DNA of 64,000 bases from an uncultured Chthonomonas sp. GTDB lineage: Bacteria > Armatimonadota > Chthonomonadetes > Chthonomonadales > Chthonomonadaceae. A program made the position numbers and the translations under genes. The notes beneath the pieces were generated by a model. That model did not search any database, was not told the DNA's origin, and saw only the letters and a program-made list of their open reading frames with translations. The stretch spans positions 1 to 64,000 of the forward strand of contig CAIONQ010000017.1 in the NCBI GenBank assembly GCA_903859705.1. The letters run 5' to 3'. The number at the start of each line of letters is the position of its first letter. Positions within the stretch are counted from its first letter, which is position 1. Positions 6,951 through 21,847 of the stretch are shown piece after piece.

Positions 6951-8222
6951 TCATTCGACTGTGCCTTCACGGTCGCCATCTCTTGCTCTCATCAATACCG
7001 CTGGCAGAAATGGTATTACCAATAACGTAATGGCAGTAGTACTCGCGTTCAACCACACAAGCTTCTCGAACGCATGGTTCCACATTTGAAACAGCTTTGA
7101 TCCAGTCACATCAGAAACCGCATTGGTTGCATTCCACACGCTCATCATAACGGCGTATCCGATTGCTTCGGTACCTCTGGGAGTTGCTCGGGCGGCCAGG
7201 TCATACACTGGCAGAATAGCAAGCGTGCCAGAGATACCTCCTACGGCGGTAATTAGTGCCGCAGAAATATGCCCATGGTAGTTCAAGTAAAGCATCGTAC
7301 CGGCGGCATGCACTACAACACTGCTAATGAGCAGTGACTTTACCGAAAGGCGCCTGCAGAAAGCATAATAAAACCAGGCCCCAAGCAGACCGGTGGCAGC
7401 ACCTACAGAGCTTAGAAAACCGATGTACTCCTTTGTGAAGTGAAGTACATCCCTCTGAACAAACAACAAAGGGGTACCAAACCCGGGTGAAATGGCAATC
7501 AGAACAACCATACCTGCAGCTGCAAGTAGCACCTTGCTGCCCAGCAGCTTTTTAAGTGCATCCTTCGCCTCCTTGGCCCCCCGGCTGTTGCGCCGTGCAG
7601 TTGGCGATTCCCCCATTTTCAGCCAGATTAAGCCAAACAGCAGAAAATGCAAGGTGGAAGCAATAGCGACCGTTAGGCCGAAGGGCCGGGATGCAAGCCA
7701 GCCACCTACTGCTCCACCGGTAACCGTTGCAAGCCGAAATGTGCCAATACGCTGTGCGGTGAGCCTGCCTGCTGCGAGATGCTCTCTTCCAACCTCTACC
7801 ATACGCCCGCCAAGTGAAGTGCTTGTTAACACAACGGTACAATAGAACACGGTGTATGTGAGCAACAGGATGGAGTAGGTTCTTGGCACAGCTCCCAGAA
7901 GCAGCCAGAAAATTCCCCCGGCTCCTACTCCAAGCAATGTGTAGTGGCGCCTCCGAGTGCCCCTAAACGGAACGGTATCTGTAAAGACGCCTGCGAGTGG
8001 TTTTACGTAATTAGACATATTGCCTGCGGCAAAAAACAGCGCAAGTTTTTCGGGTGAAAGGTGGAGCGTATCCTTTAATAGAAATCGCAGCGGAAGATCT
8101 GCGATGCTCAACGCGATGTTGGTAACTAGCCAGCTGATTGCAAGCAGCCTTGCAATATCGTTAAAATTTGATTTTGTGGATGCCGCTGGGCTCTGGGCCT
8201 CAGAAATCGTTTCAGGTGTCAA
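6951..8222 (-). CDS. MFS transporter, BT1/folate-biopterin-transporter-like
   Basis: This 423-aa polytopic inner-membrane protein has about 12 hydrophobic segments. The N-terminal loop VKPLAGVFTDTVPFRGTRRRHY resembles the KP-x-GL-xSD-x-P-x-G-x-RRRPY loop of BT1/folate-biopterin-type carriers rather than the common MFS motif A. Substrate cannot be read from sequence. The start is TTG 8222, supported by GGAGG 5 nt upstream. It is divergent from the giant glycosidase gene, with about 230 bp of repeat-containing DNA between them. It converges with rsmA at its 3' end. Confidence 0.8.
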   Translation of the reverse strand: MTPETISEAQSPAASTKSNFNDIARLLAISWLVTNIALSIADLPLRFLLKDTLHLSPEKLALFFAAGNMSNYVKPLAGVFTDTVPFRGTRRRHYTLLGVGAGGIFWLLLGAVPRTYSILLLTYTVFYCTVVLTSTSLGGRMVEVGREHLAAGRLTAQRIGTFRLATVTGGAVGGWLASRPFGLTVAIASTLHFLLFGLIWLKMGESPTARRNSRGAKEAKDALKKLLGSKVLLAAAGMVVLIAISPGFGTPLLFVQRDVLHFTKEYIGFLSSVGAATGLLGAWFYYAFCRRLSVKSLLISSVVVHAAGTMLYLNYHGHISAALITAVGGISGTLAILPVYDLAARATPRGTEAIGYAVMMSVWNATNAVSDVTGSKLFQMWNHAFEKLVWLNASTTAITLLVIPFLPAVLMRARDGDREGTVE

Positions 8223-8454: not shown

Positions 8455-11400
8455 ATGCTGAACAGGTATTTACGATCCATTACAAAACCATTGGCAGCGC
8501 TTCTGTTTGCTGTTTCTCTCTTTATGGCACTTATATTGAGCAAGGCCGCGCCATGCCAGGTGCAACCTCCTGCCGGATGGTATTGGATATGGGCTCCCGT
8601 GCCTGCTGCCTCTACTCCAGACACCGTTTACATTCGGGAAACCTTTAAACTGCCAGCTGCGCCATCGCAAGCTACTCTTCTTATTACAGCGGACGATTCT
8701 TTCACTGCATTTTTTAATGGTGCTCGCAAGCCAGCGGCACAGGGTGCCGACTGGACTACAATACACGAATTTAATGTGACTAAGCAGTTAGTAAAGGGGC
8801 AAAACCTGCTTGCCATCCGAGCAACGAACTCGGTTGGGGCTGCTGGAGTGCTCTTTAAGCTGCAAATAGTTGCCGCTGGTAAAACCTATACGCTGCGTTC
8901 CAATGCGCGCTGCCGTGTCAATCGACGGCCGCCGCCCGGTTGGAACGATATTGCCTTTCAGGATACAGCGTGGCCACAGGCTCGCGAAATAGCCTCTGTT
9001 AACAGCGGTCCCTGGGGACCACTCCACGGTGCCCTAATAAGTGACCCATCACGCCTCATCCGCATCTGGGATATCAGGGCAAGCATGCCAGCAAACATGA
9101 GCCAGTATGCTGCTCGTAGGCGTGTTGGTGATCGGATGATCCTCGCATCCAGCGTATCCAGCCAATCCGATATGAAGCTGTTGAGTTATGCAGGGTTCAC
9201 GTTATTCCAATCAGATTCTAATCATATCTCCACGGATGAAGAGGCACGAGGTCACTGGAACTGGACACCTGCTACACTTGCTGGCAGGTTAGTTAACGGG
9301 CTGGGGCTTGACTGGTGCTATTCGCCGCACTGCGCGTTCCCCCCACCCTTCTACCGAACGGACCCCGGTTTCACGCGCCTGCAATGCCTTGAACACCATC
9401 AGCCCGTACAGGCATTTTCGCCATGGGATCCTGCCTGGGCTTACTTTGTAGATGCCAACTATGCGGCACTTGCCCGGCAGTTTCAGGCGGATGTAGATGA
9501 TCAATCTCGCGAGCGAGCAATGCGCTCTAATTCGGCTGCATTGTCAGCCGTTTATGTAGGAATACATGGCGATTATGGCGAGGCTGGCTTCCTGAATGGT
9601 GGCCGAGTTTCAGTACCAGCTCAGCGAACCATTTGGGAACAAACCTTTGGAGATATTCACGACCACCTCGGATGGTGGTGCGACGATCCCATCGCGAAGC
9701 GAGATTTTCAAACAACGATGCTCGCGAAGTATGGCTCGCTTGCTAAACTGAATGAAAGCTGGAAGCGGAACTACACTACCCCGGATATGATTGCTTTCCC
9801 GGTTGTTACTGGTGTACGCACTGAGGCAAAGCAGGAGTGGTTGGATTTTGTGGATTGGTACCAGGTAGGAATTGGCCGCGCACTGGATGTTAACCTTACG
9901 GCGGCCAGAAAGCATTTTCCAAAGTCGTTGCTGATGGTTCCTGCCGGGTTCACCGATGAAAACCCACGAGGGGGCAATGATAACTCGTTGATACCAAAGG
10001 TAGCCGCAAAGTATTCGGCCGATGTGCGGTCAACACATGGCGGTTTCCGGCCGTTTGCTGAGAACCAGGCAACCATGTTTGGAAGGCTGGCGAGTGCCTG
10101 CCGGTTTTATGGCGTTCCGTTGTGGACAGAGCCACCGGGCGCCCTAACTCCGGATCAAGAAGTTGGCCGTCTGTTTGAAGATATATCCCAGGGAGTAAAG
10201 GGACACTTTGACTGGGCAGAAAATGCAGCAGCCAATATCGATACATTCTTTAAGTACTCACGTTTGTTAAGGGTAGAGAAGCCTGTTGTGGACGTGGCGA
10301 TGTTCTACCCCGCAGAAGCACAGAAACTTAAACCAGATCAGGGTTACAACCCATTGTTTGCACAGGCTTGTACGTACATGCGCGACGTTGCAAACTTCGA
10401 TATTGTAGATGATCGCATGGTGTTGGATGACTGCCTGGCCCACTATAGAGTGCTTGCATTGTGGGAAGGAACGCAGGCCAGCCAGGCTACCTTAGACAGA
10501 ATTCGAGAGTGGGTGAATGCCGGCGGAACCCTGGTAGCGTATGATTTTGGACGCGTGTCAACGTTTGATGGCGATACTTCCTGGTGGACCGACATGTTTG
10601 GCTACAGCCGAACACTACAGCCTGCCGTTCTTAAAGAAAACTACACGGGAGTAATACCGGTTCAGTACCGCATTCCGGTGGGAGAAGCCGCAGTATCCGG
10701 TTTCTTGAGTGACGATGGTTGGGAAAAGCCAGATCCTGCCCTGGGGCAGATCACACAATCAAGCCGTTGGACAAACAAGCCGCTCGCATCTGTGAAACTG
10801 CCTGTTAAGCCAGATACGCAGTACTCGCTGATTGTGCATGCGTTTGCTCCCGAAGAGGCAGACGGATTGAATCGGTCTGTACTGGTAAACGGCAAGGTAA
10901 TCGGCCAATTGCGGCAGACCGGTGATGTTACCTACCGGTTTGTTTTACCCGCAACGTTGCTAGAGGAGCACGCACTGGCTACCATCACTTTTAAGTGCGA
11001 CATGTTCACACCCACAGTAAAGATCGTAGGGCATCCAGATGTGAAATCGCTGGGAGTTCAAATTCAATCGGTTCAAATGGTGGAACAGGGTGCGCAACCT
11101 GCTGCAGACGCTCCTCTTCTGCCGGGTCAGATGCGGCATGAGTTGGACCCAAGCAAGCTTCGGAATGAATGGGCACAACTGCATGGCAAAGGTATGACGA
11201 TCTACTTCCCAGCTCAGAAGAAGCTGCTAAAGGGTTACATGGAGGTTGTACGGCAGGCGATTTATCACCTTAGCGAGATTGATCCTACCTCCGTTCGGCG
11301 GGATGCACTCCCGGTAGATGATGCCAACGACGGAATTTATGCCACCCTTTTTACAGATAGGATCCTGTATTACAATCCCAAGGATGTACGTTTAACTCGC

Positions 11401-11949
11401 AAGATATCGATACCTGATAAGCTTCTGGATGCATGGAAGGATGAGATTGTAGTTCCGCAGGAGCACTCCTGGACGGTAACACTGGAGCCTCACAGCATGC
11501 AGGCAATCTTCTTTGCGCCAGATCCTCAGGAACTGTTGTTTGAGTGCGAGAAATTTACGGAGCTTGAAGGCAGCAAGCCCGCTGCAAATCCGCTGTGCTC
11601 GCCTGGTAATGGGCTTAGCTGTGTTAGCATACCGAAAGGCGGGCAGATTGGCACCAGATTTATCCTGGATACGACTGCTGGAGGCAAGTACTCTATATTT
11701 GTGCGATGTTTGAACGGTAAGAAGGTTGTACCGATAGATGTGCTTATCGATGGTATGCCCGTTTCGGCCATAGATGCCCATGCGGGATGCACAATGCTAT
11801 CGGGCACCGTAAGTCTTGCCCCCGGCAGCCATAGCATCACGCTGAAGAATCGTAGCAACTTGCCAATTGATGCCGACTTCGTATTGATCACTAACGATCG
11901 CACAATTGCAGGATACGATTTCTCTTCGCACTTTACAAACGTAGAGTAA
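8455..11949 (+). CDS. very large secreted glycosidase-like protein
   Basis: This 1164-aa protein begins with a signal peptide (about 1-35). Residues 40-150 form a galactose-binding-like beta-sandwich (TVYIRETFKLP ... FTAFFNGARK ... LLAIRATN). The central part looks like a clan-A TIM barrel similar in style to GH42/GH14-like enzymes. The acid/base Glu may lie in GDYGEAGF near 375 and the nucleophile in LWTEPPG near 557. Residues about 640-730 resemble the Rossmann-like GH42 trimerisation domain (ALWEGTQ ... WVNAGGTLVAYD). The last ~140 residues (FECEKFTE onward) look like a CBM6/35-type module. Catalytic residues are my inference. It ends at a strong hairpin facing two transport or lipoprotein genes, which suggests a shared polysaccharide-use role. 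Confidence 0.7.
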   Translation: MLNRYLRSITKPLAALLFAVSLFMALILSKAAPCQVQPPAGWYWIWAPVPAASTPDTVYIRETFKLPAAPSQATLLITADDSFTAFFNGARKPAAQGADWTTIHEFNVTKQLVKGQNLLAIRATNSVGAAGVLFKLQIVAAGKTYTLRSNARCRVNRRPPPGWNDIAFQDTAWPQAREIASVNSGPWGPLHGALISDPSRLIRIWDIRASMPANMSQYAARRRVGDRMILASSVSSQSDMKLLSYAGFTLFQSDSNHISTDEEARGHWNWTPATLAGRLVNGLGLDWCYSPHCAFPPPFYRTDPGFTRLQCLEHHQPVQAFSPWDPAWAYFVDANYAALARQFQADVDDQSRERAMRSNSAALSAVYVGIHGDYGEAGFLNGGRVSVPAQRTIWEQTFGDIHDHLGWWCDDPIAKRDFQTTMLAKYGSLAKLNESWKRNYTTPDMIAFPVVTGVRTEAKQEWLDFVDWYQVGIGRALDVNLTAARKHFPKSLLMVPAGFTDENPRGGNDNSLIPKVAAKYSADVRSTHGGFRPFAENQATMFGRLASACRFYGVPLWTEPPGALTPDQEVGRLFEDISQGVKGHFDWAENAAANIDTFFKYSRLLRVEKPVVDVAMFYPAEAQKLKPDQGYNPLFAQACTYMRDVANFDIVDDRMVLDDCLAHYRVLALWEGTQASQATLDRIREWVNAGGTLVAYDFGRVSTFDGDTSWWTDMFGYSRTLQPAVLKENYTGVIPVQYRIPVGEAAVSGFLSDDGWEKPDPALGQITQSSRWTNKPLASVKLPVKPDTQYSLIVHAFAPEEADGLNRSVLVNGKVIGQLRQTGDVTYRFVLPATLLEEHALATITFKCDMFTPTVKIVGHPDVKSLGVQIQSVQMVEQGAQPAADAPLLPGQMRHELDPSKLRNEWAQLHGKGMTIYFPAQKKLLKGYMEVVRQAIYHLSEIDPTSVRRDALPVDDANDGIYATLFTDRILYYNPKDVRLTRKISIPDKLLDAWKDEIVVPQEHSWTVTLEPHSMQAIFFAPDPQELLFECEKFTELEGSKPAANPLCSPGNGLSCVSIPKGGQIGTRFILDTTAGGKYSIFVRCLNGKKVVPIDVLIDGMPVSAIDAHAGCTMLSGTVSLAPGSHSITLKNRSNLPIDADFVLITNDRTIAGYDFSSHFTNVE

Positions 11950-11970
11950 ATTAGCCTGTAAGCAAAAGTA

Positions 11971-12004
11971 AGCGAGCCCGCCATGCTATCTGCGCGGGCT
12001 CGCT
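11971..12004 (+). terminator. terminator of the giant glycosidase gene
   Basis: A perfect 11-bp GC-rich stem (11971-11981 with 11994-12004, 12-nt loop) begins 22 bp after the stop codon and is followed by a T-rich stretch. It may also end transcription of the convergent lipoprotein gene. Confidence 0.8.
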
Positions 12005-12141
12005 CTATTGTGTTTGCTTTCAAACTTATACGTTGTGCATCTGTCTTACGCCTACACAGGTTTGGTTCGAATAGAAGGTGATGTTTTTTCGGGACAAAGC
12101 CTTTAGGCCTGATCGTGAATTGATCGTACCGCGGAGACGCG

Positions 12142-13578
12142 TTAATTGCTCTTCTGATCTGCCGGCAACTGGTTGTATAGAATTTTTGCGGTGTGAGGGC
12201 CCAATTCAAAGGTTTTTACCTGCTGCCCGTCCAGAGTCATCATGGGGGCAGCAAGGGATACCAGGCAGTTGCCCTGATCATGCGAATTTAGGTAAACATC
12301 TCCATTTTGAAAGCGTCGTCGCCAAACAGAGTTTCCATTCAGTACAACTTCATGCCTCTCCTGCAGTGCAATCCCAAGTGGCGCATCAAAGTACTGTTTG
12401 TAGCGCTCAAATTCACGCCTCATTACTCGTGCGCTCATACCGGCGTTCGCAGGTTCACCCGGGTACTGTGGCATAGGCTGAAACACAAGGCGAGACTGCA
12501 TGTGACTCGCCAATAGGTAGCTGGCAAGCCCATATTCCAGTTCTTGTGCGTCATGATAAGCATACGCAGCTATGAATATATCGGCAGTAAGCACATTATC
12601 TGGCATCCGCCCCGCTCTGTCGGCAGCTTCCTCATGCATTTCCCAGAAGTTTTCTGGAACGTCGGCAACTGTCCAGTAAGGGCGCACCCATCCTTCCGCC
12701 CAAAACCCGTCCGTCATTCTATCCAATTCATCCCAGCTTCTGCCAGAGAGTTGTGGCTCTGTTCTCGCGTGATGCACGGGAAGTGTTGGCCGACCAATCA
12801 GGGTATCGTACCCGGCGCTGGAGGGCACAATCAGGAACTGTTTTGGCTTGTGAACTATTTGCAGAAAGCTAGCGGTTGCATCTACCAGTTTTGGAAAAGA
12901 GGAGTACTTTGTATCTTTGTAATCAACAAATGTATTGGCGGGGCCGAGTTCTGCTGCAATTACGCCATCAGAGTGATAATTTCGAGCCAGCGCTTCGGCG
13001 TTCTTGGCGTAGTAGTTTGCCCAATCCGCATTCCCGGGGTCCATCCAATGTCCGCCTGCATCGGGGTGCTTAATAACACTTCCGGATAGAGTCTTCAGTT
13101 CCCATGCCGACATTGTTGGTGAGTATATGCCGACGCTCCCGCGATGCCCCGGCTGCTCATAAATCGTACTTGCGTAAGTAAACAGAAGCGGAGTAAACAG
13201 CTTCTGAAGTGAACGCATTCGCGGAAATGTTTGAGGCGTGATGGCACTGGCATCCAGGGCCAGAACATCACAATGTGTGGCAAGCCATGTTTCCAAATTA
13301 GCACCAAGCTGCACGTTGGTACCGGCGGCATCGATGTCATCCGAACCCGTATCCCCCAGCCCGCGTGTGGTTACCATCCCCATGCGAATAGGAAACGGAT
13401 CCCTGATGCGTGCCGAACGGACAATTTCACCCTTTAGCCGTTGCTTTTGAGGAGCTTGTTTGGACGCAGGTTGGATTGTTTTTTGTGCAATCTGCGATCG
13501 ATGACATCCTGCTCCCAGGGCCCCAACAGAGCATGCAGAAACGGCGCAAAGCGCAGCTGTAAATAATCTGCTCACCAT
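12142..13578 (-). CDS. putative lipoprotein with glycosidase-like TIM-barrel character
   Basis: The 478-aa product starts with a signal sequence ending in LGAGC, close to a lipobox, so it is probably lipidated and periplasm-facing or surface-exposed. The body alternates predicted strands and helices. It includes VLALDASAITPQTFPRM, HWMDPGNADWANYYAKNAEALA and DGVIAAELGPANTF, which resemble the barrel of uncharacterised glycosidase-like proteins where a carboxylate follows a D-G-V strand. I do not recognise an exact family. It lies 44 bp downstream of the DUF6785-type membrane gene on the same strand, so the two are likely co-transcribed. It may bind or trim a glycan that the membrane protein handles. 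Confidence 0.6.
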   Translation of the reverse strand: MVSRLFTAALCAVSACSVGALGAGCHRSQIAQKTIQPASKQAPQKQRLKGEIVRSARIRDPFPIRMGMVTTRGLGDTGSDDIDAAGTNVQLGANLETWLATHCDVLALDASAITPQTFPRMRSLQKLFTPLLFTYASTIYEQPGHRGSVGIYSPTMSAWELKTLSGSVIKHPDAGGHWMDPGNADWANYYAKNAEALARNYHSDGVIAAELGPANTFVDYKDTKYSSFPKLVDATASFLQIVHKPKQFLIVPSSAGYDTLIGRPTLPVHHARTEPQLSGRSWDELDRMTDGFWAEGWVRPYWTVADVPENFWEMHEEAADRAGRMPDNVLTADIFIAAYAYHDAQELEYGLASYLLASHMQSRLVFQPMPQYPGEPANAGMSARVMRREFERYKQYFDAPLGIALQERHEVVLNGNSVWRRRFQNGDVYLNSHDQGNCLVSLAAPMMTLDGQQVKTFELGPHTAKILYNQLPADQKSN

Positions 13579-13622
13579 TATTTTAGTACCTTTTGGCCAA
13601 GTATACCCATCGCATTATCGCG

Positions 13623-15650
13623 CTACTGCCAGAACTGATACGTTGGCAATCCAACGATAATGCCGTAAATGTTCCACAAACTGCCAACCACAAACTGCCC
13701 CAGCATAAGCCCTATAAAGAATGGCAGGGCGCGATGGAAACCGCCCCGGCCACCGTACCGTAGAATGAGCGACTTAAACATCCACGCAAGGAATAACGGG
13801 CCCCACACCAGGTTGATTTCCCACGAGGATGTAACTGCAAATGCAAGCGGATGCAGTGGCCACCATGGGAACCGCACGCGCAAAAGCTGCAGAATGAAGG
13901 CGATACCAAAGCCAATGGTGATAGCAAAGAACTCTGGCGCTTTTCCTACCTGTGGCGTACGCAACCACGCTTCTAATTTGGTGTACGATTCTGCGCCAAA
14001 GGAGAGCTTAGATTTACCTTCCGCTCCATATTGGTACATCAGGTGTAGTACTGCCCAGAATCCTACAAAAACAGCTATGCTGCCAAGCACCAGAAGTGCG
14101 CCTGTCCACTTTCGATAGCTTGTGTTGGTTTGTTCGGCAAGTTTGAACGCTTCGAGCTGTTGTGGGCCGGGATGAGAGCGGTACGCTCGATTGAACCAGA
14201 AGAATATGGCAAACACAGTAAGAGTATCTGCATCAAAGGCTCTGGATCCCGCCACCGAAGTCATGATGGTTTCTGGGCCTGTAAAATGCAAATCATGTAC
14301 AGGTGTACCGAGTTCTGCCCTCATTCTGGTTATTGCCAGAGCGAGTGCGAAATAGATTATGAAGAACAGCAGACCAACCTGAAATGGCATTCCAAGGTAG
14401 TTAGAGAACAGCAAAAGAGCCGTAACGCCTACGAATATTCCCAGAGCTGCCCCTCTGTAAGTCATCGGTTCTTGCGAATCATCTATTGAACCTGGCCGCC
14501 TGAATATTCTGGCTACAACTTGTTTCAGATAGTGCCGGCTGAGGTAGATGGAGTAGGCACAGAAAGACATGTATGCGCCGAACGCCTGGTTCTCTGTGTA
14601 CGGCACCCGCGGGTCTTGATCATAGGCCAGAGCGACTGCCGTAACTTTCTCGAACTTCCAGAACCAGTAGAAGAAGACACATGAGAAAAGGAAGTCGAGA
14701 GGCATAAACATGCCAAGGCCAATCATAAATGGATAGAACGAAAGCGGTGTCCAGCCGATGCTATTCCACGGCTTGGTTGTAAAAAACTGACCGATATCCA
14801 GGTAGGAGTGCCCGAATCCTGGTGTTAAGATAGTTGGAATCGACGGATAGTAATAGTTGAGGCTGTTGATTTGATCTATTAGCCCCGCAACGGCAAATCC
14901 TATCCAGAACAAGCGGTTACGAAATACACCGGCTGGTTGGAAGGCCTGATCACTTGTAATCTGCAGCGGAAGTTGTACGATGGGATACGTGAGGCGCTCG
15001 CTATCGGTCCACTGCTTACGTAGAATGGCATTAACGCACATCATCACGTAGAGCAAAACGCTTACAAAACCGCTCCAAACGAGGCTGATCGGCATCCACA
15101 CACGCAGGTACTTCAGTTGCCAAACACTGTCGTTGCCAATGTAGTAGCCCTTATAGATATCCTCGTCGGCAACAAACAGGGCTTTCTTTAAGTGCGGGTT
15201 TATCAGCGTTGCCCAGCCGTTAACCGCATTTGCGTGTTTAAAGGACCAGGTAAGCATGGGGACAAATACTTCAAGCATGTCGTGCCCACACACACAGGAG
15301 CCTATACACAATACACTGTAAACCAGGAGTAGCTCGCCACGCTGCAGTGCTGCCTTTGGTGCCACCCGCATTACGCCTCGATTAAGTACCGTGAGGCAAA
15401 ACAGCACGAAAATGGTGTTGAACAACAGCGAAATGGTGGTAGGATGCGCAGAATAGCGCACAACCTCCATCTGTACAACCCATATAGCATTGATTGGTAG
15501 AAGAAGAAGACTCAGGAGAACGGATCGCCAGGTTACAGCTTTATTGTGCGTATGTGGCGCATCTGTAACCGCAACACTTTGTGCCGGGGGAGCTTCATTT
15601 GTTTCAGCGTCTGCCCCAACATGTGCTGCCCCGGATTGCGCCATTGCCAT
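13623..15650 (-). CDS. DUF6785/DUF6784-type multipass membrane protein
   Basis: The 675-aa protein has a hydrophilic N-terminal 40 residues followed by about 14 hydrophobic segments. Recognisable stretches include ALQRGELLLVYSVLCIGSC and the soluble loop FFWFNRAYRSHPGPQQLEAFKL, which fit the DUF6785/DUF6784 proteins common in Planctomycetes and Armatimonadota. Those families resemble OPT-type transporters in topology, but no substrate is established. The ATG at 15650 has GAGG 11 nt upstream. The lipoprotein gene follows after 44 bp, while the menaquinone operon diverges on the other side. Confidence 0.75.
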   Translation of the reverse strand: MAMAQSGAAHVGADAETNEAPPAQSVAVTDAPHTHNKAVTWRSVLLSLLLLPINAIWVVQMEVVRYSAHPTTISLLFNTIFVLFCLTVLNRGVMRVAPKAALQRGELLLVYSVLCIGSCVCGHDMLEVFVPMLTWSFKHANAVNGWATLINPHLKKALFVADEDIYKGYYIGNDSVWQLKYLRVWMPISLVWSGFVSVLLYVMMCVNAILRKQWTDSERLTYPIVQLPLQITSDQAFQPAGVFRNRLFWIGFAVAGLIDQINSLNYYYPSIPTILTPGFGHSYLDIGQFFTTKPWNSIGWTPLSFYPFMIGLGMFMPLDFLFSCVFFYWFWKFEKVTAVALAYDQDPRVPYTENQAFGAYMSFCAYSIYLSRHYLKQVVARIFRRPGSIDDSQEPMTYRGAALGIFVGVTALLLFSNYLGMPFQVGLLFFIIYFALALAITRMRAELGTPVHDLHFTGPETIMTSVAGSRAFDADTLTVFAIFFWFNRAYRSHPGPQQLEAFKLAEQTNTSYRKWTGALLVLGSIAVFVGFWAVLHLMYQYGAEGKSKLSFGAESYTKLEAWLRTPQVGKAPEFFAITIGFGIAFILQLLRVRFPWWPLHPLAFAVTSSWEINLVWGPLFLAWMFKSLILRYGGRGGFHRALPFFIGLMLGQFVVGSLWNIYGIIVGLPTYQFWQ

Positions 15651-15912: not shown

Positions 15913-17373
15913 ATGGCATACAGTGACTTTCAAGAGTTCCTCAGTCGGCTCGACGCAGCCGGGGAGCTGAAGAGGATCAAAGAGCCTGTTGATCCGTATC
16001 TCGAGATTACCGAGATTGCAGACAGGGTGATGAAAATGCCCGGCGGCGGTCCGGCACTTCTCTTCGAAAATCCAAAGAACAGTTCGTTTCCGGTAGCCAT
16101 AAACATATATGGCAGTCGGAAGCGGATGAGCATGGCTCTTGGTGTTAACGATTTCGAGGAAATAGCCACCGAGTTGGCTGCTATGTTAAAGCCAGAAGTT
16201 CCTTCTGGTATCGTTTCCGCTACGCGCGAGTTCCTTCCCAAGCTGAGCACCTTGCTCAAAATGCCTCCACGCCACGACAGTGGGCCAGGGAGATGCCAGG
16301 AAGTAGTGCAGCTCGGCGATGAAGTAAATCTGGATGAGATCCCTGTATTGCATTGTTGGCCAGACGATGGCGGCAGATACATCACTTTGCCGTTAGTGTT
16401 TACCAATGACCCGCTAACCGGCAAGCGCAATGTTGGCATGTACCGAATTCAGGTGTATGACCAGAACACAACAGGTATGCACTGGCAGATGCATAAAACG
16501 GGTGCAGAGCACGCACGGATTTCTGGAGCACAGAAGCGAAAGATTGAAGTTGCTGTGGTTCTGGGCGGTGACCCTGCCCTTACTTATGCGGCAACGGCTC
16601 CCCTGCCGCCTGGTATTGACGAGATGCTGTTTGCTGGATTTTTACGCAAGAAGCCAGTGCACCTTGTTAAGGCTAAAACGGTAGACATCGAGGTTCCTGC
16701 CGATGCGGAGTTCGTGATTGAGGGATTTGTAGATCCCACTGAGAGCCGCCTTGAGGGCCCATTTGGAGACCACACTGGCTACTACTCGCTGGCAGACATG
16801 TACCCTGTGTTGCATGTAACTGCTGTAACTCGGCGCAAACAGCCCGTGTATCCGTGTACCATCGTTGGGCAGCCTCCAATGGAGGATGGCTGGCTGGGCA
16901 AGGCCACCGAACGAATATTTCTGCCGTTACTAAAGCTAACGTTGCCTGAAGTAGTTGATATGCACCTTCCTGTAGAAGGCGTGTTTCATAACATCGCTTT
17001 AATATCCATAAAAAAGCGCTATCCTGGCCACGCATTCAAAGTGATGCATGCCCTGTGGGGCCTTGGGCAAGCGATGTTTACGAAGATGATATTTGTCTTC
17101 GACGATGATGTGAATGTGCAGAATGTTCAGGAATGTTTGTGGCGATTAGGGAATAATATTGATCCAGAGCGGGACATGTGCCTGGTACGTGGCCCCATCG
17201 ATGTGCTGGATCATGCATCCAGGTCTCTGGGCTTCGGTTCAAAGGTAGGCTTTGATTGCACGCGTAAACTTCCTGCAGAGGGGTTTGGGCGCGAATGGCC
17301 GGATGTCATCAAGATGTCTGACGATGTGAAAACTCGTGTAGATGCTATGTGGAGCAGACTGGGAATAAATTGA
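15913..17373 (+). CDS. UbiD-family decarboxylase (MqnL-like)
   Basis: UbiD enzymes are prenylated-FMN-dependent non-oxidative decarboxylases of aromatic acids. The 486-aa product has the family features: SDFQEFLSRLD at the N-terminus, ITEIADRVMK, the prFMN and metal-site region MYRIQVYD with MHWQMHKTGAEH, and the EGPFGDHTGYYS loop carrying catalytic acidic residues. Because ubiX, ubiA and mqnA follow directly, the likely substrate is the prenylated 1,4-dihydroxy-6-naphthoate intermediate of futalosine-route menaquinone synthesis. That role is inferred from context and from the known MqnL/MqnM/MqnP set of Streptomyces. It overlaps the next gene by 4 nt at its stop. Confidence 0.92.
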   Translation: MAYSDFQEFLSRLDAAGELKRIKEPVDPYLEITEIADRVMKMPGGGPALLFENPKNSSFPVAINIYGSRKRMSMALGVNDFEEIATELAAMLKPEVPSGIVSATREFLPKLSTLLKMPPRHDSGPGRCQEVVQLGDEVNLDEIPVLHCWPDDGGRYITLPLVFTNDPLTGKRNVGMYRIQVYDQNTTGMHWQMHKTGAEHARISGAQKRKIEVAVVLGGDPALTYAATAPLPPGIDEMLFAGFLRKKPVHLVKAKTVDIEVPADAEFVIEGFVDPTESRLEGPFGDHTGYYSLADMYPVLHVTAVTRRKQPVYPCTIVGQPPMEDGWLGKATERIFLPLLKLTLPEVVDMHLPVEGVFHNIALISIKKRYPGHAFKVMHALWGLGQAMFTKMIFVFDDDVNVQNVQECLWRLGNNIDPERDMCLVRGPIDVLDHASRSLGFGSKVGFDCTRKLPAEGFGREWPDVIKMSDDVKTRVDAMWSRLGIN

Positions 17374-17999
17374 CGGACAGCGAAACAACAATAGATAGTC
17401 CCATCGTTCCATCGGTGACACCGCCGGATCTTGGCACAGCACTTTTCTCTGTAGACATGCAGTGGGGCCAGCAGCCTGTTCGGCTGACGGCCTTTAAATG
17501 CCGGGAAATGCCAGCGGAAGCGCCAGTCACTTCCGTTCATGTTGTATCCTTTTGCGGGGAGCGCGTACTTGTTGTGCGTGATCGCAAAGGATCCTTCGGA
17601 TACCCGGGAGGTCGCCTCGAAGCCGGCGAAACAATCCATGAAGCGATGCAGCGAGAGGTGTTTGAGGAAGCGTGTGCACACTTACATCCTGGCTACGAAC
17701 TTTTTGCCGTGTTGCGGATAGAGTGTACGGCGCAGTTGCCTGGCCGCGAGTATCCGCACCCTTATAGCTACATGGGAATGTATGCCGGGTTGGTTAAGGC
17801 GTTAGAGCCCGTTGCACGCGATCCTGCCGGAATCATCACGGGCCGGGATCTGTTTACATTTAGCGATTGCGAGCGGCGCCTGGATGAGCACGATCAGCTA
17901 CTGCTACACGAAGCTATAGCTGTACTGAAATGCAACCCTACCTGTATTCGCAGAATTCGAACGTTTCTTAATGGAGCTCCGCTAAACACACGCTCCTGA
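17370..17999 (+). CDS. NUDIX hydrolase inside the menaquinone operon
   Basis: This is a 209-aa cytoplasmic protein. The Nudix box is complete: G-G-R-L-E-A-G-E followed by R-E-V-F-E-E-A, matching GX5EX7REUXEEXGU. NUDIX enzymes cleave nucleoside diphosphates linked to another group, and the substrate here is unknown. The start is uncertain. TTG 17370 overlaps the ubiD TGA (TTGA) and favours translational coupling, while GTG 17349 would add seven residues. Its embedding between ubiD and ubiX suggests co-expression with quinone synthesis. Either a nucleotide-sanitising or a prenyl-diphosphate-hydrolysing role could be imagined, but neither is shown. Confidence 0.85.
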   Translation: MTDSETTIDSPIVPSVTPPDLGTALFSVDMQWGQQPVRLTAFKCREMPAEAPVTSVHVVSFCGERVLVVRDRKGSFGYPGGRLEAGETIHEAMQREVFEEACAHLHPGYELFAVLRIECTAQLPGREYPHPYSYMGMYAGLVKALEPVARDPAGIITGRDLFTFSDCERRLDEHDQLLLHEAIAVLKCNPTCIRRIRTFLNGAPLNTRS

Positions 18000-18013
18000 T
18001 CGTAAGTACTGAT

Positions 18014-18640
18014 ATGTCGATCACCACAGATAAGGCCGAAAGCCGCAGGCTGATTGTTGCAATCACGGGCGCAAGTGGCGCACCCTACGCGGTGCGCTTC
18101 TTGCAGATTGCTGTTCAGCATTATGATGAGATCTACCTCGCAGTATCCGAGCAGGCCAGGCAAGTTATTGCTCTCGAAACTGGCCGGTCAGTATCGTTTG
18201 ACGATCAATTGTCAGATTCGCTGCTCGGCTTTCATTCGGACGTACTTCGGCTTGTAGAAAAACGCAACTACTTCTCTCCCCCGGCAAGTGGATCATTTCG
18301 AAACGACGGAATGGTTATTGTTCCGTGTTCCATGGGTACGGCTGGCCGAATTGCGGGCGGCATTAGCGATGATATAGTAACGCGTGCCGCCGATGTGTGT
18401 TTGAAAGAGCGCCGCAAGCTGATATTGGTTCCTAGAGAAACACCATGGAACCTTATTCACCTCCGCAACTTAACTACATTGGCGGAAGCAGGTGCCACCA
18501 TTTTGCCCGCGTGCCCCGGTTTTTACCATGGCGCAAAGACTATAAATGATCTGGTTGATCATGTTGTGGCCCGCATCCTACAGCAGCTTAACATAGAGCA
18601 CAAACTTATTCCTGAGTGGCAGCATGACGAGGAGATGTGA
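18014..18640 (+). CDS. ubiX: UbiX-family flavin prenyltransferase (MqnM-like)
   Basis: UbiX joins dimethylallyl phosphate to FMN to make the prenylated flavin that UbiD enzymes need. The 208-aa sequence has the N-terminal AITGASGAPYAVRFLQ phosphate/flavin loop. It also has the central VIVPCSMGTAGRIAGGISDD segment and the RKLILVPRETPWNLIHLRNL arginine/glutamate region. All three are diagnostic. It is cytoplasmic and usually dodecameric. It lies 14 bp after the nudix gene and 3 bp before ubiA, supporting tight operon organisation and supply of cofactor to the UbiD encoded first in the operon. Confidence 0.95.
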   Translation: MSITTDKAESRRLIVAITGASGAPYAVRFLQIAVQHYDEIYLAVSEQARQVIALETGRSVSFDDQLSDSLLGFHSDVLRLVEKRNYFSPPASGSFRNDGMVIVPCSMGTAGRIAGGISDDIVTRAADVCLKERRKLILVPRETPWNLIHLRNLTTLAEAGATILPACPGFYHGAKTINDLVDHVVARILQQLNIEHKLIPEWQHDEEM

Positions 18641-18643
18641 GAA

Positions 18644-19519
18644 GTGACAGCGGTTATTGATCGAACCCGGCTCATTCTTCAGATGATAAAGTTTGAGCAC
18701 ACTATCTTTGCGCTCCCTTTTGCCCTTATAAGCGTCATACTGGCCTCTCAGCAGCGCGGAGCTTCTCCTGGTGCCGCTACTGTAGGTTGGGTTCTACTTG
18801 CGATGGTTAGCGCGCGTAGCGCGGCTATGGCATTTAACAGGCTGTGTGATGCCGATATAGATGCCAACAACCCCCGAACCGCACAGCGCCACATTCCGGC
18901 GGGCCTGTTATCACGTGTTCAGGTTGGAACCTTCCTGTTAGTTTCTGTGGGTCTTTTCGAACTCGCCGCATTCAAGCTAAACCGAATGTGTTTTGCTCTG
19001 TCTCCGGTGGCACTGGCATGCGTTCTAGGCTATAGCTATACCAAGCGGTTCACGTCCCTGTGTCATCTGTTCCTGGGGTTTGCTATTGGAATAGCACCCA
19101 TAGGGGCATGGCTGGCTATATCCCCTCGCCTTGCTCCGGTTCCCCTGGCGCTTGGAGCGGTTGTGATGCTGTGGATCGGCGGATTTGATATCATCTATGC
19201 CCTTCAGGATTATGAGTATGATGTGAAATCCCCGTTGTACTCATTGCCAAAGCGCCTGGGTAAACCACGAGCACTGATGGTATCTCGAGCAATGCACGTT
19301 GCGGCTATCGGATTGCTCTGCTGGATAGGTGTGCTTTCTGGCTTACATGCCGCGTATTTTACGGGAGTTGCGGTTGTTGCCTGCTTAATATGCTGGGAGC
19401 AAAGCCTAGTGAAGCCGGATGATTTGAGGCGCGTTGATCTGGCGTTTTTCACCTTGAACGGTTGGGTAAGCGTGAGCCTGTTCTTGTTTGTGCTGGCAGA
19501 TAACTGGCTCAAACATTAG
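18644..19519 (+). CDS. mqnP: UbiA-family prenyltransferase (MqnP-like)
   Basis: This 291-aa integral membrane protein has about eight or nine hydrophobic helices. The first Asp-rich motif is NRLCDADIDANNPRT and the second is ALQDYEYDVKS, matching the Mg-diphosphate binding sites of UbiA prenyltransferases. The opening ILQMIKFEHTIFALPFAL is typical of the clade that acts in futalosine-pathway menaquinone synthesis, where it attaches the polyprenyl tail. The start is GTG 18644, three bases after ubiX, with GAGGAG inside the end of ubiX as ribosome site. Assignment to MqnP rather than 4-hydroxybenzoate prenylation follows from mqnA being next. Confidence 0.9.
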   Translation: MTAVIDRTRLILQMIKFEHTIFALPFALISVILASQQRGASPGAATVGWVLLAMVSARSAAMAFNRLCDADIDANNPRTAQRHIPAGLLSRVQVGTFLLVSVGLFELAAFKLNRMCFALSPVALACVLGYSYTKRFTSLCHLFLGFAIGIAPIGAWLAISPRLAPVPLALGAVVMLWIGGFDIIYALQDYEYDVKSPLYSLPKRLGKPRALMVSRAMHVAAIGLLCWIGVLSGLHAAYFTGVAVVACLICWEQSLVKPDDLRRVDLAFFTLNGWVSVSLFLFVLADNWLKH

Positions 19520-19539
19520 AGTTTAACGGTGGACCATCG

Positions 19540-20337
19540 ATGACCCTCAAAATTGGCAGTGTGCCTTACTTAAACGCAAAGCCTCTTGTGGACTATTTCC
19601 ATTCAGCCGATTGCACAGAGGATGTTGAGGTTGTGTATGCAGTGCCATCCAGGCTCGCAAAGATGCTGCGAAACGGGGAAGTAGACGTTGCCAACTGTTC
19701 CATATTTGAGTGCCTATCTGCTCCTGGCCTCAGCATCGTACCAGGGGTCTCTATTTCATCTCATGGGCCAGTGATGAGTGTTAGGCTATTTAGCAACGTA
19801 CCCATCTCAGAAATACGTTCCGTTGCACTGGATACCAGTTCTCTAACAAGTTCTGCCCTCACAAGAATTGTGCTTAACGAGCGGTGCAAAGCGGAGCCCA
19901 CTTATGTAAACTGTGATCCAGATCTCGACAAGATGCTGGCTATCGCTGATGCAGGATTGATTATTGGAGATTTGAAGCTATTTGACTTGCAGAAAGGTAC
20001 TACCGAGTACGATCTCGGCGAAGAATGGCAAAACAGCGTTGGTTTGCCGTTTGTTTACGCTGCATGGCAGACACCAGAAATAAGTGCCAGTCATGAGATG
20101 ACGTTTCTCTTGAACAAGGCTATGCACTGGGGAACACAACGGCATGAGGAACTGGCCTTAAAGTGGGCCGAAAAGATGCGACTGCCGTATGAAAGATGCC
20201 TCAAATATTTCCGAGAGGCAATGGTGTACGGCCTAGATACAAGCCAGGTGTACGGTTTAAACAGGTATCGCCAGGAGTGTATTGCACTTGGATTGATAGC
20301 CGATTCCCCATTGCCTGCTTTTGGCCCGGCTGAGTAA
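19540..20337 (+). CDS. mqnA: chorismate dehydratase (MqnA)
   Basis: MqnA removes water from chorismate to give 3-[(1-carboxyvinyl)oxy]benzoate, the first step of the futalosine route to menaquinone. The protein (265 aa) is a periplasmic-binding-protein-like fold without a signal peptide. It opens with KIGSVPYLNAKPLVDYF, followed by VPSRLAKMLRNGEVDVANCS and IGDLKLF, which are hallmarks of MqnA. It is the last gene of the ubiD-nudix-ubiX-ubiA-mqnA operon, 20 bp after ubiA. The later enzymes MqnB, MqnC, MqnD and MqnE are not in this window and must be encoded elsewhere. Confidence 0.94.
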   Translation: MTLKIGSVPYLNAKPLVDYFHSADCTEDVEVVYAVPSRLAKMLRNGEVDVANCSIFECLSAPGLSIVPGVSISSHGPVMSVRLFSNVPISEIRSVALDTSSLTSSALTRIVLNERCKAEPTYVNCDPDLDKMLAIADAGLIIGDLKLFDLQKGTTEYDLGEEWQNSVGLPFVYAAWQTPEISASHEMTFLLNKAMHWGTQRHEELALKWAEKMRLPYERCLKYFREAMVYGLDTSQVYGLNRYRQECIALGLIADSPLPAFGPAE

Positions 20338-20356: not shown

Positions 20357-21589
20357 TTACAGAGATTTTAGTGTTTCCAGAAGCTGATCAATTTCATTTA
20401 GCGTGTTGTAGTGAACTGGCCCTACCCTTATGGCCCCTTCGTCCATCCCCAGGCTCTTCATAAACTGGTAGGCATAGTAGTTTCCGCTCCAACAGTATAT
20501 TCCTCGCTCCGCCAGTTTGTTTGTGGTGGCACGAGGAGACAATCTATCCCACACAAAACTAACTGTACTGAGGCGTTCTTGCCTTCGAGCCGGATCTGTA
20601 ATACCAAGTATTCTAACGCCAGATATTTCCTGCAACGCATCTATGAGCGTGTAACAGAGGCTATCCTCGTGCGATTGCATCCTTGACATCGACTCCACGA
20701 TCTGATTCCGCAACTCCTGGGAAGTATTCCAGGGCTTAACTTCTGCATCTGGTGCGGCGATGTGCTCTATAGCGGCAAGCGTTCCTGCAATCCCCTCGTG
20801 ATTCTGAGTGCCAGTTTCCCAACTGGAAGGTGGTAGTGCAGGCGCCGGGCGCACTTTGTGCCGTGGCAGGTTGTTTAGAACCTCATCTGTGCCATACAAA
20901 ATCCCAACGTGGGGGCCGAAGAACTTGTATGCCGAACAAACCAGAAAGTCGCAGCCCATTTGCTGTACATCAGTTGCACGATGCGGAGCGAACTGTACAG
21001 CATCTACATAAGTTAGCGCTCCCGCGGATTTCGCTAATTTTACTGCGCGGTTAACATCTGGAATTGTGCCAGAAGCGTTTGACGCTGCCGTAATTGCCAA
21101 CAATCTGGTGCGACTGGTAAGCAGCGATGTTAATTCGCCAATATCAATTGTGCAATCGTTGGAATTAAGAGACATCCTCTTGATAACGGCACCCTGAGCC
21201 TGCAAATCTAACCACGGCGCAACGTTTGCGTCATGATCGAGATCCGTAACAATTATCTCGTCGCCAGGTTGGATTGTGTCGGCAACAGCACGGGCAACAT
21301 GAAACGTTAGGGATGTCATGTTGTTTCCAAACACTATGTTGGTGGGATTCGGTGCATTCAGCAAAGCAGCAGCAGCCAGGCGCGCTCGGTTAATAGTGTG
21401 CACCACCCCAACACTTGTATTAAATGCGCCACCTACATTTGCACATGTGCGCACGTAACATTGCGTAACCGCCTGAATAACGGATTGAGGCACCTGGGTG
21501 CCGCCCGGGTTATCAAAGAAAACGGGAGAGCCCGGTTGGGAAATAGCGGGAAACTTTGCGCGGACGGCATCAATGTTTAGTGGCTGCAC
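20357..21589 (-). CDS. cysteine-desulfurase-like PLP enzyme (VC1184 type)
   Basis: This is a 410-aa fold-type I class V aminotransferase. The pyridoxal Lys lies in SAYKFFGPHVG, and the cofactor-binding segments DLDHDANVAPW and YVDAVQFAPH are clear. FDNPGGTQ near the start and RGIYCWSGNYYA near the end are typical of the VC1184-like branch, related to SufS/CsdA but with a different C-terminal catalytic region. Physiological substrate is therefore unsure. The reading frame runs open further upstream, but that extension enters the tRNA-Leu gene and cannot be coding there. GTG 21589, with GAAAGG 12 nt upstream, gives the usual family length. Confidence 0.85.
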   Translation of the reverse strand: MQPLNIDAVRAKFPAISQPGSPVFFDNPGGTQVPQSVIQAVTQCYVRTCANVGGAFNTSVGVVHTINRARLAAAALLNAPNPTNIVFGNNMTSLTFHVARAVADTIQPGDEIIVTDLDHDANVAPWLDLQAQGAVIKRMSLNSNDCTIDIGELTSLLTSRTRLLAITAASNASGTIPDVNRAVKLAKSAGALTYVDAVQFAPHRATDVQQMGCDFLVCSAYKFFGPHVGILYGTDEVLNNLPRHKVRPAPALPPSSWETGTQNHEGIAGTLAAIEHIAAPDAEVKPWNTSQELRNQIVESMSRMQSHEDSLCYTLIDALQEISGVRILGITDPARRQERLSTVSFVWDRLSPRATTNKLAERGIYCWSGNYYAYQFMKSLGMDEGAIRVGPVHYNTLNEIDQLLETLKSL

Positions 21590-21753
21590 AGCGATAATGC
21601 GCCTTTCAAACAACTTACGAGTTGTAACGATGCTAATTGGGTAGAAACGAACAGTTGAGGGTAAACGCAATGCTGTGTGAACCGTAAGCAATCGGCGCTT
21701 ACGTGCTGGCAGCAAACCTGAAGAAACCTTAAGTGCGAGCTTTTGAAAACAAA

Positions 21754-21836
21754 TGCCGTAGGTGGGAGTCGAACCCACATGAGGTTGCCCCCAATGGTTT
21801 TTGAGACCACCGCGTATGCCATTCCGCCACTACGGC
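21754..21836 (-). tRNA. tRNA-Leu (anticodon CAA)
   Basis: Read on the minus strand, a 7-bp acceptor stem (GCCGTAG/CTACGGC) closes an 83-nt class II tRNA. The anticodon stem GTGGT/ACCAT holds the loop CTCAAAA with anticodon CAA. A long variable arm and a T arm with GGTTCGACTCC follow. The 3' CCA is not encoded, so a CCA-adding enzyme is required. Confidence 0.96.
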
Positions 21837-21847
21837 AATTCGAGCGT

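Follow-up and report, generated by a model that had tools for sequence, protein, structure and literature searches.

Polysaccharide-utilisation loci (PULs) of the SusCD type place secreted glycosidases beside a transporter gene, a feature shared by the locus described here. In contrast to these systems, neither SusC/SusD-like genes nor a binder were recognised among the three genes of the present locus, and its gene order and content vary among relatives. A further transporter gene that adjoins the trio matches no SusC or SusD family either.

The transporter gene of the trio encodes a protein of the DUF6785/DUF6784 type, for which our literature search returned no paper naming either domain and nothing usable on uptake in Armatimonadota. 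Its closest structural counterpart is YS1, from the yellow stripe-like branch of the OPT proteins (7wst and 7wsr), which has the same fold over the whole length, although the window transporter is only about 12% identical to it. Peptides or metal chelates are the cargo of the known OPT proteins, which are not known to transport sugars. The two enzymes of the locus recall GH42/GH14 glycosidases together with rhamnosidase SaRha78A on the one hand, and the GH168 enzymes Fun168A, Fun168D, Fun168E and PbFucA on the other. We tentatively favour, at somewhat less than even confidence, a reading of the DUF6785/6784 protein as an OPT-fold importer of small sugars or glycosides, paired opportunistically with extracytoplasmic glycosidases.

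Layout of the locus

The window, that is, the whole stretch of 64,000 nucleotides from an uncultured Chthonomonas sp. that was analysed, carries the following features:

8455-11949, plus strand: gene for a 1164-aa secreted multidomain enzyme
about 11972-12006 (approximate, read by eye), given on the plus strand: inverted repeat GCGAGCCCGC...GCGGGCTCGC, located between the 1164-aa and 478-aa genes
12142-13578, minus strand: gene for a 478-aa secreted GH168-like/GHL15 putative glycosidase
13623-15650, minus strand: gene for a 675-aa DUF6785+DUF6784 multipass transporter with an OPT fold

The enzyme gene converges on the minus-strand pair, with 192 bp between the stops. Within this pair, the 478-aa gene lies 44 bp downstream of the DUF6785 gene on the same strand, a gap which suggests that the two genes are probably co-transcribed. 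The inverted repeat is a possible bidirectional terminator. The consensus terminator scan does not include it, its loop being longer than the limit of the scan, and neither the promoter nor the terminator scan of the sequence gave a signal above that of shuffled sequence.

Folds and candidate active sites

The initial annotation had proposed a degrader, a binder and a carrier. All three reading frames are real. Its description of the degrader is confirmed by a signal-like N-terminus, several domains and the convergent orientation, and the comparison with OPT structures that it suggested for the carrier agrees with a transporter. The supposed binder, a lipoprotein in that annotation, turns out to be a second glycosidase-like protein.

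Both domains of the 675-aa protein exceed the Pfam gathering score and together cover its full length: DUF6785 (PF20581) at E 1.4e-159 and 532.3 bits (cut-off 25), DUF6784 (PF20580) at E 3.8e-30 and 104.5 bits (cut-off 26.4). An AlphaFold model built from 19 diverse homologues (pLDDT 85, pTM 0.87) superimposes on barley YS1 (7wst) with Z 25.7 and an rmsd of 3.6 over 552 of 601 residues, the best unrelated structure reaching Z 6.0. The model thus strongly supports an OPT fold for DUF6785/6784, and with it the transporter reading. As the single YS1 fold spans the whole protein, DUF6785 and DUF6784 are two parts of one OPT fold. Sequence comparisons give little trace of this relationship. PDB sequence searches with DUF6785 returned no match. 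Profile comparison (hhalign) with eight bacterial OPT proteins gave a weak colinear match (probability 31%, E 5e-4, 411 columns), which became weaker with a larger alignment (E 0.008). The Pfam OPT family (PF03169) does not match the 675-aa protein at E <= 1, and we therefore file it as an OPT-fold protein, not as a member of PF03169. The fold gives DUF6785 a mechanism class, in a family that is present in 206 of the 291 Armatimonadota genomes searched, often in many copies, and also in Poribacteria and Sumerlaeota.

The model of the 478-aa protein (pLDDT 84) resembles GH168 endo-1,3-fucanases, with Z 26-28 over about 315 residues; nearly all of the 14 best structure matches are named GH168 or fucanase, and the next structural families follow at Z of about 18-20. 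The barrel and C-terminal sheet of GH168 are both found, as are acidic residues ending β4 and β6, whereas sequence identity to GH168 enzymes is 12-15%. The family profile finds nothing in the PDB at E <= 1, and the best hit of the single sequence, 9joc, is not significant (E 1.5); we therefore call the protein GH168-like rather than GH168. GHL15 (PF14885, hypothetical glycosyl hydrolase 15) matches 13 of the 14 family members, at best with 1.3e-8, the window protein itself falling below the gathering score (17.9 vs 27 bits). The reading as a carbohydrate-binding lipoprotein is rejected on these matches together with the full GH168-type fold.

Candidate catalytic acids in the model are E210, at the end of β4, and E295, at the end of β6 (full-protein numbering). 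The first position is acidic in 12 of 14 family members and the second in 11, being lost in the other three. In FunA, the catalytic residues are D206 and E264 (review PMC11943901, Table 3), to which E210 and E295, picked by strand position, may correspond. The lipobox of the window protein (LGAGC) is atypical at -3 and reads ASGC in a relative of the same genus, also an uncultured Chthonomonas sp. (G043). Since its cysteine is, moreover, missing from most homologues, surface anchoring of the 478-aa protein is uncertain.

The 1164-aa enzyme divides as follows:

residues about 33-182: CBM67-like module, with a profile match to the N-terminal module of SaRha78A
residues about 225-600: GH42/GH14-like TIM barrel
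after the barrel: A4-beta-galactosidase-like region
C-terminal part: beta domains, with a CBM35 match in one homologue

Profiles of the N-terminal 150 or so residues match the rhamnosidase module (3w5m) at 3.5e-20 and lectins at 1e-23; we take this module to be CBM67-like, after that of SaRha78A. The barrel matches beta/alpha-amylase at 4e-10 and also GH42 beta-galactosidases. Pfam GH14 is found in 10 of the 14 family members and GH42 in eight, weakly (best 1.5e-5), the window enzyme having no Pfam family above gathering score, GH42 included. The candidate acid/base D373 is Asp or Glu in 13 of 14 members. In contrast to GH42 and GH14, the catalytic Glu varies: the candidate nucleophile E559 is Glu in nine members and missing in five, so activity is not assured across all lineages of this enzyme.

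Gene neighbourhoods among relatives

We surveyed 16 loci with homologues of the presumed lipoprotein, 20 with the enzyme and 19 with an orthologue of the transporter. Neighbour ranks are approximate in high-GC loci, where our own gene caller takes some ORFs on the antisense strand. Homologues of the 478-aa protein occur in 17 of the 291 phylum genomes, nearly all from the family of the window genome. The GH168-like and DUF6785 genes are adjacent in four of about 14 evaluable genomes and three of 11 genera (g1, g2 and g11); same-strand pairs are found in the window genome (G000), G043, G040 and G054 and are absent from the other evaluable genomes. The enzyme gene clusters with the orthologous DUF6785 gene in G000, G043 and G054, and in G048 and G050 it directly adjoins a different DUF6785 paralogue, of about 33% identity, so that it flanks some DUF6785 gene in three genera (g1, g11 and g7). 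The exact arrangement, an enzyme gene converging on a GH168-like gene that lies downstream of DUF6785, is found in two genera (G000/G043 and G054). Most relatives from this family have the three genes at separate places. The tree of transporter orthologues (n = 25) fits either one ancestral pairing with the GH168-like gene followed by losses, or several gains.

These results bear on the polysaccharide-utilisation locus of degrader, binder and carrier proposed in the initial annotation, for which a survey of this kind had been suggested. The families do associate recurrently, if partially, in other genomes, and this part of the proposal stands. Its strong form, a fixed trio, does not survive the scattering of the genes in most relatives, the lack of a binder and the other paralogues of the window genome, which have no recognisable glycosidase directly adjacent. 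The survey of the enzyme, 478-aa and transporter loci rules out a conserved three-gene PUL.

Glycosidases were also counted around forty DUF6785 loci from diverse families, in sets of near proteins (within two genes of DUF6785) and far proteins that both leave out those under 330 aa. At least 9 of 71 near proteins are glycosidases (three GH43, two GH2, and one each of GH42, GH38, GH51 and DUF2961), compared to at least 1 of 71 in the far control from the same loci, a GH78-type domain, among the matches listed. Fisher's test gives P 0.009 for 9 against 1, and 0.058 for 9 against 3, which allows for two weaker far matches beyond those listed. Glycosidases are thus moderately enriched beside DUF6785 across the phylum. 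A scan of named genomes with the DUF6785 alignment, whose hits were mostly Poribacteria orthologues, was rejected as evidence on glycosidases, its shared neighbours (e.g. a homoserine-kinase-like gene) reflecting conserved synteny.

It is quite possible, though we hold it to be somewhat doubtful, that the three genes are merely loose neighbours, DUF6785 being a core gene that serves the order in a separate role, such as salvage of ribose or of a nucleoside-derived sugar, and both glycosidase-like genes having landed beside it independently in a few genera. The transporter orthologue is indeed single-copy across the order and changes partners, with ribokinase in families f2 and f3, the GH168-like gene in three f1 genera and other genes elsewhere. 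Enzyme orthologues elsewhere lie mostly among housekeeping genes, and the genes that flank the window trio (ksgA, UbiD/UbiX/UbiA/MqnA) are conserved but unrelated to it, the whole block being kept in G043. Nevertheless, the same-strand pairs of transporter and GH168-like genes, with gaps of 9-87 bp across three genera, exceed what random placement would give, as do the occurrence of the enzyme beside two different DUF6785 lineages and the glycosidase enrichment elsewhere.

The strongest functional clue is the pairing with ribokinase. In eight genomes of six genera from sister families f2 and f3, a whole-genome search found the orthologous transporter gene directly followed by a ribokinase gene of the same orientation, with 30-204 bp between the matches. 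The transporters concerned are 58-64% identical to that of the window, and all five ribokinases checked by NCBIfam score above the TIGR02152 equivalog cut-off. Four other f2 genomes do not have the pairing, nor does the family of the window, whose genome carries its ribokinase gene on another contig. A genome holds about 4000 genes, and such a pairing cannot arise by chance placement, although the genomes are related by descent and do not count as independent cases. Because of this coupling to ribokinase in the sister families, ribose or a similar sugar is the best single guess for the ancestral cargo.

The ribokinase genes also argue against a conventional OPT function, in which DUF6785 would import oligopeptides or metal chelates and its sugar-gene neighbours would be incidental. 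We consider this unlikely, even if the closest solved relative is an Fe(III)-phytosiderophore transporter (YS1) and DUF6785 could fill a vacant role: PF03169 genes are found in none of the 31 genomes of the order at E <= 1e-10, and canonical OPT genes in one of the 291 phylum genomes. The enrichment near DUF6785 is in glycosidases, not peptidases. Furthermore, canonical bacterial and archaeal plasmid OPT genes (L297, L298, L299, L301 and L303) each have a PqqD-family gene directly after them, whereas no such gene was seen in the DUF6785 neighbourhoods examined, where ribokinase or glycosidases are found instead. Finally, a bespoke degrader-binder-carrier locus for one polysaccharide, as a new PUL class in this lineage, is highly improbable, since despite an arrangement kept in two genera it has no binder, most relatives do not keep the trio together, and the window genome flanks its remaining paralogues differently.

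A possible route for small sugars

Under the tentatively favoured reading, an OPT-fold importer of small sugars or glycosides beside extracytoplasmic glycosidases, glycans would be cut by the CBM67-GH42-like and GH168-like enzymes on the outer side of the cytoplasmic membrane, across which the DUF6785/6784 protein would import a small product, either a monosaccharide or a short glycoside. The three proteins would then act on a shared substrate. Import would probably be driven by an ion gradient, by analogy with OPT proteins. The ancestral cargo would, on this guess, be ribose or a pentose resembling it, or else a glycoside that includes such a sugar. GH168 enzymes act on fucans, which gives no pointer to ribose, and the two substrate clues thus disagree.

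It is conceivable, with some doubt, that this extends to the family as a whole, DUF6785/6784 being a large OPT-fold family, multicopy in Armatimonadota, that would import sugars or small glycosides rather than peptides or metal chelates, together with ribokinase or secreted glycosidases depending on the branch. If the cargo is a sugar, the range of OPT-fold substrates would gain a new class, and this would help to explain product uptake in polysaccharide degraders poor in SusCD.

Other DUF6785 loci differ in their surroundings. The other five paralogues of the window genome have no recognisable glycosidase directly adjacent. Another DUF6785 paralogue is faced by a gene (L009:7178-8764, plus strand) whose 529-aa product carries a TAT-like signal and has no Pfam match. 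In two genomes, G054 (L067:10577-14599) and G051 (L159:147-4239), the orthologous DUF6785 gene forms a tandem with a further, divergent member of the family.

Several neighbours of the trio are also of note. An MFS gene of the BT1/folate-biopterin family (window positions 6951-8222, minus strand) is divergent from the 1164-aa enzyme gene, and the same genome has a second one (L011:8610-9884) at a distance of about 2.5 kb from another DUF6785 paralogue; the two match each other with 248 bits. On the other side, positions 15913-20337 (plus strand) hold the row of UbiD-, NUDIX-, UbiX-, UbiA- and MqnA-like genes of the block shared with G043, which looks like a cluster for quinone synthesis (menaquinone, futalosine-type). 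Next to this row, the ORF of an aminotransferase-like protein (473 aa, 20357-21837, minus strand) overlaps, as listed, a tRNA-Leu gene at 21753-21837, suggesting that its true start is probably downstream.
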